Positions 21,475-45,196 of a stretch of DNA of 45,196 bases are shown here, in pieces. The number at the start of each line of letters is the position of its first letter. Positions within the stretch are counted from its first letter, which is position 1. The DNA lies in the NCBI GenBank assembly GCA_020721645.1, contig DYMH01000014.1, positions 1 to 45,196 of the forward strand, given 5' to 3'. The notes beneath the pieces were generated by a model. The model saw nothing but the letters and a program-made list of their open reading frames with translations, made no database searches and was not told the origin of the DNA. The DNA is from Draconibacterium orientale. Lineage in GTDB: Bacteria > Bacteroidota > Bacteroidia > Bacteroidales > JAADGE01. A program made the translations under genes and the position numbers.

Positions 21475-22425
21475 TTACAATTTTGCCCGAACAAAGAAAA
21501 CAGCCCCCAGTGCCGTTGGAAAAGCAATGTTTATAATCCAAACAGTAAAAGTTGCAGCAATGATACCCATATCGTTAGCCGCAAAAAATCCGATAAACCA
21601 CAGTGCCGCCGAGCCGCGAATGCCCAGTTCGGTGAGTGTTACCGTGGGAATTAGTGCAAGGACGAAATATGTGAGGGCAATTCCCAAAAAAGCATGAATT
21701 GCACTGATTTCGACATGGAAAAATCGAAGTAACAAAAAATATTGCGTTACAAATATCAAATATCGAAGTATCGATAATCCAATTGCAAAAAGCATTGTTT
21801 TTAAAGAATATTCGGAAGCAAAAAGGAGATTTTCGGAATATTTTTTCAAAAAATGAATTTTCGATAAATATATCGCAAAATTTTTCATTCTAACCAATAT
21901 CAGCAGCAAAACAGAGATAATGATAAGTCCGACAATTAACATCAAAATACTGTTGAGGCTGTTTATGTTTTTAAAAATACCGCCAAAACGGATTGCTACA
22001 ACCGAAAAGGAAATCAATCCGAAAAACAAACTTACCGTGAGCTGAGCCATGCTGCCGGCAGCCGTTGATAATATTCCGGCAGGGCGATTTTTTCTTTTCA
22101 AAACAAATATTCTTCCTGCCCATTCGCCAATGCGATTGGGGGTGATGATTCCCGTTACAAGCCCTGTGAACACAGCTTTCAGTGATGTAAATATTGAAAT
22201 TTTTTCAATATGCGAAATCAATATTTGCCATTTTTTGGCTTCCGAAAGCCAATTTAATGTTGTTAGAAAAATTACAAGCATCAGCAGGCAGTAGTTCGGC
22301 GAATCAAAGGATTCGACAAATGTAAAATTGCCTTTTGATATTCGCTGAAAAATATATCCCAAAGACAAAAGAAGTATCAGAATTTTAATAAATATTTTTA
22401 CTGTTTTTTGCCTCTTCCTTTTCAC
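21475..22425 (-). CDS. UPF0104 / LPG synthase transmembrane-region family protein
   Basis: This is a polytopic membrane protein with seven or eight hydrophobic segments. It belongs to the lysylphosphatidylglycerol-synthase TM (AglD/MprF N-domain) family, with GLVTGIITPNRIGEWAGR and a late TVTLTELGIRGS block. There is no C-terminal aminoacyl transferase domain. In this family the membrane part is often a flippase-like unit; a role in lipid or glycan transport is inferred only. The frame continues upstream to a TTG at 22506, but the first 27 residues are basic and unlike the family. GTG at 22425 (316 residues) places the first membrane helix as usual. The start is uncertain. Confidence 0.78.
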   Translation of the reverse strand: MKRKRQKTVKIFIKILILLLSLGYIFQRISKGNFTFVESFDSPNYCLLMLVIFLTTLNWLSEAKKWQILISHIEKISIFTSLKAVFTGLVTGIITPNRIGEWAGRIFVLKRKNRPAGILSTAAGSMAQLTVSLFFGLISFSVVAIRFGGIFKNINSLNSILMLIVGLIIISVLLLILVRMKNFAIYLSKIHFLKKYSENLLFASEYSLKTMLFAIGLSILRYLIFVTQYFLLLRFFHVEISAIHAFLGIALTYFVLALIPTVTLTELGIRGSAALWFIGFFAANDMGIIAATFTVWIINIAFPTALGAVFFVRAKL

Positions 22426-25456: not shown

Positions 25457-26266
25457 ATGAATTTTAAAATTACCGATACGATAACAAGTCGTCAAAATCC
25501 AAAAATAAAGAACACGCTTTTATTGCAAAAAGCAAGCGAACGTCGAAAGCAAAATATTTTTGTGATTGAGGGTTTGAAAGAAATTGAAAAAGCCGCCGGA
25601 AAAGGCTATGAATTTGAGACTGTTTTCTTTTGTTCAAAACTCATTTCGGCAAAAGAATTAGAAAGAATTTTACCCGAAAACGGTGCACTGCACATTTACG
25701 AAGTCAGTCCCGAAGTTTTTGAGAAGATGGCTTATCGCGAAAATTCGGGCGGCGTTGTGGTATTGGCACGCCCGAAAAATCATCGCCTCGAAAACCTGAA
25801 ACTCAGAACGAATCCTTTGATTTTAGTTATCGAAAGCGTGGAAAAACCCGGCAATCTCGGGGCTTTGTATCGCACTGCCGATGCAGCAGGAATTGATGCA
25901 GTGCTGATTTGCGACCCGAAAACCGATTTGTACAATGCCAATGCCGTGCGTGCCTCGCTGGGCTGTGTTTTTACAATACCGACAGCACTTACCGACAGTA
26001 AAACGGCGATAGAATTTCTGAAAAAAAATCAAATTAAAATTTTTGCAACATATTTGCAGGCTGCTGTTCCGTATCACACGGTAGATTTTACCCAATCTTC
26101 GGCAATTGTTATGGGTACGGAAGCTACCGGAATTTCACAGGTTTGGGTCGATTCTGCCGACAAAAACATCATTATTCCGATGCGAGGCGAAGCCGATTCG
26201 ATGAATGTTTCGACTTCGGCGGCTGTTGTTATTTTTGAAGCGTGTCGGCAAAGAGGATTTAAGTAA
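25457..26266 (+). CDS. TrmH-family (SPOUT) RNA 2'-O-methyltransferase
   Basis: This 269-residue protein has an N-terminal substrate-binding domain (SRQNPKIKN start, about 1-95). A SPOUT knot domain follows with its three motifs: NLGALYRTADAAG, IVMGTEATGIS and IPMRGEADSMNVSTSAAVV. It methylates a ribose 2'-OH in rRNA or tRNA with SAM, as RlmB and TrmH do; the exact site is not evident. It is the third gene of the RNA-modification cluster. Its stop lies 4 bases before the 8-bp duplication that flanks mobile element A1, so A1 sits in the 3' end of this transcript. Confidence 0.9.
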   Translation: MNFKITDTITSRQNPKIKNTLLLQKASERRKQNIFVIEGLKEIEKAAGKGYEFETVFFCSKLISAKELERILPENGALHIYEVSPEVFEKMAYRENSGGVVVLARPKNHRLENLKLRTNPLILVIESVEKPGNLGALYRTADAAGIDAVLICDPKTDLYNANAVRASLGCVFTIPTALTDSKTAIEFLKKNQIKIFATYLQAAVPYHTVDFTQSSAIVMGTEATGISQVWVDSADKNIIIPMRGEADSMNVSTSAAVVIFEACRQRGFK

Positions 26267-26278
26267 TATTTTAATTTA

Positions 26279-26520
26279 TAGACTTACATACATAAACAAT
26301 ATCATACAAACCATGAGGCTGTTCAAAAGTTGAATTTTAGTAGTATGTGTAAAATATTTTGGCATTTCATAACTGTCTCGATTTTCATCGTAGAGACGTG
26401 TTGCACACGTCTCAAACACAAATACGTGTAAAATATTTTGGCATTTCATAACTGTTTTCTGCGTGCATCAAACTTCGAGAGTCCCTTGATTTGAGTGTAT
26501 TGGTTAAGTAAATAAGTCTA
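26279..26520. mobile_element. MITE-like element A1 (242 bp) with 8-bp target duplication
   Basis: The ends form an imperfect 23-bp terminal inverted repeat (26279-26301 and 26498-26520, 19 of 23 positions matching), both starting TAGACTTA from the outside. The element is flanked by TTAATTTA on each side (26271-26278 and 26521-26528), a perfect 8-bp direct repeat as left by transposition. It has no coding capacity. Internally there is a perfect 30-bp direct repeat (26347-26376 and 26426-26455) around a palindrome (26393-26413). The copy at 45144 is identical to the first 53 bases. The right duplication supplies the TAA stop of miaA. Confidence 0.88.
26393..26413. repeat. Palindrome nested inside element A1
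   Basis: GAGACGTGT, loop TGC, ACACGTCTC: a perfect 9-bp stem. The GTAGAGACG...CGTCTC type of palindrome is a familiar dispersed element in Bacteroidota and cyanobacteria. Here it sits between two 30-bp direct repeats, as if it inserted and duplicated adjoining sequence. Confidence 0.85.
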
Positions 26521-26525
26521 TTAAT

Positions 26526-27461
26526 TTATTCTGCTTTAAGCCATGTCGTAATCATATTTATTTTTTTCTCGTCTTCCAAATATCCGTCTAATTTATGAAT
26601 CACAAAACCTTCGTTTTCCATTTTGCGAAACCATGTCATCTGGCGTTTCGAGAATTGATGAATTGCCGTTTCGAGAGCCGAAAACATTTCGTTGTAGGTG
26701 TATTTACCTAAAAGAAAATCGCTTAAATATTTGTATTCCAAACCGTAATATTGAAGTGTTTCTATCGGAACTCCCGAATCCAGAAGTCGATTTACTTCGT
26801 TGAGCATTCCGTTTTCGAGTCTTTGTTTCAAACGCTCTGTAATTCGGCGACGGCGTGAATCTCGGTCGAAAACCACTTGAATGTTCAGACTGTTGATTTG
26901 TGGAAAATCGGTTTCCGTTTCCGGATTTTTTTCGTAAAACAAAGCAATTTCAACAGCACGAAGCAAGCGTTTTCGGTTCGAGGTATCGCTGATGTTATGC
27001 AAGGAACGGTGTGAATTTAAAATTTCGGTCAATTCTTCATCGCTTTTTTTTGTTAGTTCGGCTCTCAAATTCTCATCAACAGGCACATTAATCAGTCTAT
27101 AGCCTTTCAGAACGGCTTCGATATACATTCCGGTTCCGCCGCAAAGAATCGGGAATTTTTCGCGCGAACGAATATCTTCAAAAACCTTTAAAAAATCGCG
27201 TTGATACTCGAAAACATTGTATTTTTCGCCGGCATCGGCAATGTCGATTAAATGGTAGGGAATCAATTTCCCGTTTCGTGTATATTCCGACAAATCTTTT
27301 CCCGTGCCGATGTCCATTCCGCGATACACTTGGCGCGAATCGGCACTTATAATTTCGCCGCCCAAACGCTCGGCTGCCAAAACAGCCAAAGATGTTTTTC
27401 CTCCGGCTGTTGCTCCGAAAACAGAAAGCAGATTGTATTTTGTTTGAGATTCGTTTTTCAT
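26526..27461 (-). CDS. miaA: tRNA dimethylallyltransferase
   Basis: This 311-residue enzyme adds a dimethylallyl group to A37 of tRNAs reading UNN codons. The P-loop GATAGGKTS is at residues 16-24, followed by the ISADSRQVYRGMDIGTGK signature. The Cys-Gly-Gly-Thr-Gly-Met-Tyr block, PVDENLRAEL and the C-terminal KRQMTWFRK are present. ATG at 27461 is chosen; the frame also allows a TTG three codons upstream. The stop codon lies inside the right 8-bp duplication of element A1. It is divergent from smpB with 76 bases between them. Confidence 0.95.
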   Translation of the reverse strand: MKNESQTKYNLLSVFGATAGGKTSLAVLAAERLGGEIISADSRQVYRGMDIGTGKDLSEYTRNGKLIPYHLIDIADAGEKYNVFEYQRDFLKVFEDIRSREKFPILCGGTGMYIEAVLKGYRLINVPVDENLRAELTKKSDEELTEILNSHRSLHNISDTSNRKRLLRAVEIALFYEKNPETETDFPQINSLNIQVVFDRDSRRRRITERLKQRLENGMLNEVNRLLDSGVPIETLQYYGLEYKYLSDFLLGKYTYNEMFSALETAIHQFSKRQMTWFRKMENEGFVIHKLDGYLEDEKKINMITTWLKAE

Positions 27462-27506
27462 CGGATTCAAAATTAATAATTCCGAAGGATTTTCTTAGAA
27501 AAAATT

Positions 27507-44970: not shown

Positions 44971-45135
44971 TAGACTTACATACTTAAGCAATACCTCGTA
45001 TTCCTTGCAGGTGTTCAAATGCGGATTTTAACAAGGACACTTAAAATATTTTGGCATTTATTGACTATTTTCGGGTGCTACATAAAATTCAGGAAACCTC
45101 GTGAATCAACGGTATTGGTTAAGTAAATAAGTCTA
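44971..45135. mobile_element. MITE-like element A2 (165 bp)
   Basis: Same ends as A1: TAGACTTACATAC at the left, and the last 24 bases identical to those of A1 at the right (ending AAATAAGTCTA). The interior shares TAAAATATTTTGGCATTT and the TGTTCAAA block with A1, but lacks the second 30-bp repeat and the palindrome. The flanking octamers AAAATTTT (44963-44970) and AACATTTA (45136-45143) agree at 6 of 8 positions, a possible decayed duplication. Confidence 0.82.
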
Positions 45136-45143
45136 AACATTTA

Positions 45144-45196
45144 TAGACTTACATACATAAACAATATCATACAAACCATGAGGCTGTTCAAAAGTT
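45144..45196 (+). mobile_element. Element A3, left end, cut by window edge
   Basis: The 53 visible bases are identical to the first 53 bases of A1 (26279-26331). It begins exactly 8 bases after the right end of A2, in the same orientation. The rest lies outside the window. Confidence 0.88.

Follow-up and report, generated by a model that had tools for sequence, protein, structure and literature searches.

A recently mobile MITE family with 8-bp target duplications in Draconibacterium orientale and its probable IS1595-type partner

The described element that most resembles the one treated here is an IS1595-type MITE of Haloquadratum walsbyi, which is 165 bp long, occurs in 7 copies, and has a 25-bp inverted repeat, an 8-bp direct repeat and the partner insertion sequence (IS) ISHwa6 (PMC3852290). 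Judged by description, the two are alike in IS1595 type, short size and 8-bp repeats, but differ in that the H. walsbyi element has an archaeal host and a known partner, whereas here the partner is inferred and some copies contain repetitive extragenic palindromes (REPs). Members of the IS1595 family are described as usually having 8-bp duplications (PMC8101967), and ISApl4, one of them, as having 39 copies with AT-rich 8-bp repeats (PMC12561309). BrickBuilt of Porphyromonas gingivalis (PMC4596501) is likewise, by its description, an intergenic MITE with internal repeats, although the 23-nt minisatellite is its own. Finally, GTAG-tagged REPs accompanied by RAYT transposases are described (PMC3733652), and these resemble a palindrome nested in our element, which starts with GTAG, is dispersed, and lies beside a Y1-type gene elsewhere in the genome; they differ in that here the palindrome sits inside a MITE with 8-bp duplications. 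Among the titles and abstracts on MITEs with IS1595, Bacteroidetes or nested REPs, neither the present family nor a REP within an IS1595 MITE was found; the family is new as far as these sources go, while an IS1595-type MITE with 8-bp repeats was already known from Haloquadratum.

The window is the whole 45,196-nt stretch of DNA that was analysed, and its genome comprises 3.83 Mb in 285 contigs. The relevant features of the window are as follows.

25457 to 26266, + strand: trmH, SpoU-type methylase gene (Pfam)
26271 to 26278, no strand: left 8-bp duplication copy, TTAATTTA
26279 to 26520, + strand: type I MITE, 242-bp form
26279 to 26301, + strand: left terminal inverted repeat; compared over 24 bases, it departs from the IS left (B) end at 3 positions and from the right (A) end at 5
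26344 to 26376, + strand: internal 33-bp direct repeat, copy 1
26377 to 26455, + strand: 79-bp segment not in the 163-bp form, with the palindrome and the second 33-bp repeat
26390 to 26413, + strand: REP-like palindrome, GTAG-tagged, GTAGAGACGTGTTGCACACGTCTC
26423 to 26455, + strand: internal 33-bp direct repeat, copy 2
26498 to 26520, − strand: right terminal inverted repeat; compared over 24 bases, it departs from the IS right (A) end at 1 position and from the left (B) end at 5
26521 to 26528, no strand: right 8-bp duplication copy, TTAATTTA, with the miaA stop inside
26526 to 27470, − strand: miaA, IPP transferase gene (Pfam)
44971 to 45135, + strand: type II MITE, 165 bp, whose 8-bp flanks, AAAATTTT and AACATTTA, do not match
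45144 to 45196, + strand: left part of a further type I copy, truncated at the contig end

The octamer TTAATTTA stands at 26271-26278 and again at 26521-26528, abutting both tips of the element exactly, and the 242 bp between these arms (26279-26520) terminate in TAGACTTACATACATAAACAATA and TAGACTTATTTACTTAACCAATA, 23-bp inverted repeats identical at 19/23 positions; the original prediction had described just this structure. It had also placed the element between the stop codons of two convergent RNA-modification genes, which holds for trmH and miaA, although the spacing it gave, about 25 bases, does not, the stop-to-stop gap before insertion being 9 bp by the coordinates. Both reading frames are whole after the insertion, and the arm said to form the miaA stop is the right one, within which the TAA lies on the minus strand at 26528-26526. 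The window copy thus combines inverted ends with a flanking duplication, and the list of open reading frames (ORFs) contains none of 80 or more residues inside 26279-26520, leaving the element without a transposase gene. An Rfam scan returned nothing reaching the gathering score, and at the insertion site we detected no terminator-like sites and two promoter-like sites, no different from shuffled sequence. The 242-nt strand folded better than shuffles (z −3.08; 1/200 equally good), a surplus that may be owed to the inverted ends and the palindrome.

Within the window, the 23-base end pattern occurred five times at up to three mismatches, whereas 100 shuffles gave 0.07 occurrences on average. 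The genome-wide search for these ends that the original prediction had asked for gave 93 sites at the same threshold, whereas the reversed pattern gave 18. When the element itself served as a DNA query, 57 matches were returned; many of these hit only the inner palindrome, and copies are better counted by the end pattern. Reading the ends, we obtained 88 distinct combinations of flank and end; dispersed short elements account for 13 left and 13 right ends, and two further types, B and A, for 30 and 32, respectively. Six short elements are complete on one contig, namely the 242-bp window copy, copies of 163 and 340 bp (both on C134) and the 165-bp copies at window 44971-45135, C80 and C93. All but one of these six are flanked by a perfect 8-bp duplication, different in each case (TTAATTTA, AATATTTT, ATTGTTTT, AAAATCTA and AGAATATT). 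The sixth, at 44971-45135 in the window and 8 bp from the neighbouring copy, has unmatched flanks (AAAATTTT / AACATTTA); copies of this kind had been named in advance as evidence against a MITE, and one complete copy in six is of that kind. Ends on separate contigs also share flanks, C283 with C66 (AATAAAAA) and C274 with C227 (TTGATTTT), whereas pairing through AAAATTTT is ambiguous, since several ends have this flank in common.

An inverted repeat and an 8-mer that had both arisen by chance in AT-rich DNA would account for a single site, and the 8-mer does consist of A and T only; however, the ends and the exact duplications recur across the genome, which refutes this explanation, its probability being negligible, and bears out the earlier view, which had set the exact abutment at both repeat ends against the greater likelihood of chance 8-mers in AT-rich DNA. 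It is also highly improbable that we are looking at a fossil repeat which spread via recombination or duplication rather than transposition: although the inner modules vary among copies and the tandem pair in the window has no matching duplication, five copies with five different perfect 8-bp duplications speak against it. A recently transposed MITE, as first suggested from the window copy, is therefore supported by a multi-copy family with the same ends and exact 8-bp duplications in 5/6 complete copies.

Several other sites depart from the regular form. In the tandem pair (44971-45196), the outer left flank AAAATTTT is unlike the 8 bp that separate the type II and type I copies. The 13 right ends include a 92-bp mini-element on C50 and a solo end on C10. 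The 92-bp mini-element (L136, 3655-3746) has the ends TAGACTTA...TAAGTCTA and 8-bp flanks that do not match, while the solo right end (L256, G000:C10, 9137-9226) has an IS-type tip, TAATCAATA, fused to MITE interior. At a composite site (L142, G000:C5, about 21909-22319), a MITE right end occurs together with several palindromes, arranged in another order.

The two remaining end types belong to something longer. Type B has 30 distinct flanks (TAGACTTAATTACATAAATAATATTTATTTTTGCAG...) and type A has 32 (TAGACTTATTTACTTAATCAATACAATTTGCGACC...), and every one of these ends (30/30 and 32/32) reaches a contig end, at a distance of 45 to 53 bases for A and of 37 to 53 bases for B, with one at 81. As all of them run off their contigs, the repeat was collapsed during assembly and its body is missing from the bin. 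When the 8-bp flanks of B and A ends were compared, 22 pairs were found, involving 18/30 B ends and 18/32 A ends, a number that includes AT-only 8-mers with two partners and so does not equal 22 proven insertions. There were 3 pairs at 9 bp, 8 at 7 bp, 9 at 6 bp, 19 at 5 bp and 52 at 4 bp, flank lengths below 8 bp yielding more chance pairs. Shifting one side by a single base reduced the pairs to 7, 2000 column-preserving shuffles of the flanks gave a mean of 3.65 and a maximum of 14, and a same-type flank control gave 4/931. The targets are very AT-rich, with a G+C content of 6.9% compared with 27.7% in the next 17 bases outward. The flank pairing shows that B and A are the left and right ends of one longer element. 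Looking for a full-length element with the same ends, as the original prediction had called for, we found the junctions of about 30 longer elements, whose body and transposase are absent from the bin.

Comparison over 24 bases ties the short elements to this longer one. The right end of the type I MITE is 1 base off A and 5 off B, while its left end is 3 off B and 5 off A, so that type I ends keep their IS sides; the left end of the type II MITE has 3 differences from A and 6 from B, and here the side is not kept. Beyond about 24 bp, no similarity was seen between the MITE and known IS sequence. In our judgement the window segment is most likely a MITE of the IS1595 type, for which an unassembled multi-copy IS supplies the enzyme in trans.

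Transposases of the IS1595 family contain the DDE_Tnp_IS1595 domain, accompanied by a zinc ribbon except in the IS1016 group. The original prediction found no transposase in the window to match the element, and this extends to the whole bin: the IS1595 domain profile (PF12762) gave no match there, nor did the protein of an IS1595 relative, while PF12762 matched in 57/247 genomes of the order. We therefore compared the junctions with elements of IS1595 relatives, which measured about 960-990 bp, had 8-bp duplications like those of the partner and tips such as TAGAGGTCATAAGATAAATG or TTGAGGTGTTTACTTAATTA, and encoded proteins starting MELFKGQNLIEF or MEIYNGEKLLEF; the two that were scanned had both PF12762 and PF12760. 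Aligned with the L179 left end, the B end reached a score of 51 (shuffles 26.1, sd 4.7), and against 4/9 of the relatives' left ends (L176, L179, L183 and L184) none of 200 shuffles was as good. For L173, L177 and L178 the score was reached by 3 to 7 of 200 shuffles, and L175 (39/200) and L156 (60/200) showed no excess over shuffles. Comparisons of the A end with the relatives' right ends were not significant, being reached by 22 to 192 of 200 shuffles. In cross comparisons L179 stood out both ways (B against right, A against left) and L184 for B against right, as would be expected of inverted repeats.

Two further features concern the gene of the longer element. On C244 the B end extends further and opens an ORF, MENIFTGENIL, of which 11 residues are readable and whose start is placed as in the IS1595 relatives. 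At the other side, the gene of 9/10 IS1595 relatives closes with a TAA lying exactly 13 nt inside the right tip (5 nt in the tenth, L156); a TAA stands at the same distance in the A end and may be the stop of its gene. In G232, a genome on one contig with an IS1595 element of the same group, nine 970-bp copies were found, 7/9 with exact 8-bp repeats under a fixed motif; at up to one mismatch this genome had one lone end-like site and zero short copies. The 970-bp copies in G232, L179 and, as it is described, ISApl4 resemble the partner in their AT-rich 8-bp duplications and in an ORF start near the left end. They differ from the window element in being gene-bearing and in their tips, the relatives having TAGAGGTC, TTGAGGTG or TTGAATTA and both the partner and the MITE TAGACTTA, with the window element being gene-less.

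Other transposase families also produce 8-bp duplications, and a true MITE whose partner comes from one of these would fit the lack of the IS body in the bin, a tip (TAGACTTA) unlike those of the IS1595 relatives examined, and right ends without significant similarity. We regard this as unlikely, given that it leaves aside the left-end similarity, which includes the ORF start, and the stop position shared with 9/10 relatives, and given that an IS1595 element, ISApl4, is itself described with AT-rich 8-bp repeats (PMC12561309). On the left-end similarity, ORF start and stop position, the partner is most likely an IS1595-family IS, and its size would be about 1 kb. An IS of this length would fall below the smallest contig noticed in the bin (3,087 bases), and its absence would be due to this. 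The enzyme that moves the MITE, left unnamed by the original prediction, is thereby narrowed by inference to an IS1595-family transposase, although the protein itself was never seen.

Under this preferred reading, the MITE would carry the end sequences of the longer IS, present in about 30 copies with its body collapsed in assembly. The IS transposase, with its zinc ribbon and DDE domain, would bind and cut the TAGACTTA...AATA ends and join them to 8-bp staggered breaks in very AT-rich targets, repair of which would leave the 8-bp duplications. The same enzyme would mobilise the MITE in trans, and one such event would have placed it in the 9-bp trmH-miaA gap.

We also looked for the insertion site and the ends in other genomes. 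MiaA matches were present in 21/21 genomes of the same family, including its own, with only a distant paralogue in G011 and G019. Taking at least 58% identity as the threshold for a miaA orthologue, 15/20 relatives had at least 600 bases downstream, the other five having 205 bases downstream (G007), a cut within the gene (G010 and G020) or no orthologue (G011 and G019). No TrmH match lay downstream of the miaA orthologue in 15/15 of the former, and a TrmH protein search of 30 fetched loci matched the own locus only. With no TrmH match beside miaA, these relatives do not have the trmH-miaA junction in common with the window and offer no empty site for alignment. The end pattern at up to one mismatch occurred in 13/99 relatives, the own genome included; sites in three of the 12 others (G086, G036 and G057) were inspected and contained nothing like the family element, the likeness in G086 lying outside the pattern. 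Among 395 genomes of the class, the exact pattern was found in two, the own genome and G575, the latter with a single site. The A-end pattern had no match in viral contigs, while the B-end pattern matched one genome contig, of 26 kb, in a Sulfuricurvum MAG (L135, G650:C10). The same IS ends border this contig on either side and account for both of the matches in that MAG, and we suppose that the contig is misbinned, perhaps from the own organism or a near relative.

Apart from one substitution and an additional 79 bp (26377-26455), the segment in which the palindrome lies, the window copy equals the 163-bp form. The 21-bp palindrome core had 44 genome matches at up to two mismatches, a site being counted on both strands, and its reversed pattern had none. 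Palindromes of the GTAG type occur elsewhere in the element in the 340-bp form, and the REP segment is found in at least one further copy, the right part of which is on C66 and the left end probably on C283, by the common AATAAAAA. The palindrome also flanks a Y1 transposase gene (PF01797) at G000:C40, the arrangement of a GTAG REP with its RAYT. At this locus (L249, G000:C40:6500-8800) the Y1/RAYT gene lies within arrays of the GTAGAGACG palindrome, with a run of N nearby. One possible but doubtful reading is that two unrelated transposition systems are stacked in these 242 bp: the REP would have entered an IS1595-type MITE through a RAYT-type enzyme and would then have been taken to new places by the IS1595 transposase. 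Stacking would fit the REP-less 163-bp form and the further REP copy, but recombination between copies could also yield such forms.

The repeated ends, 8-bp duplications, AT-rich targets and two end types with pairing flanks show a clean MITE family that has moved recently and strongly prefers 8-bp targets made up of A and T only, an ordinary type of bacterial transposon but a new family. The 62 junctions of one unassembled IS at contig ends, and a window that itself ends inside a MITE copy, explain many of the breaks in this assembly and illustrate that junctions in a draft genome allow a transposon missing from it to be inferred. If the stacking of the two systems is true, the spread of the REP would depend partly on a DDE transposase.
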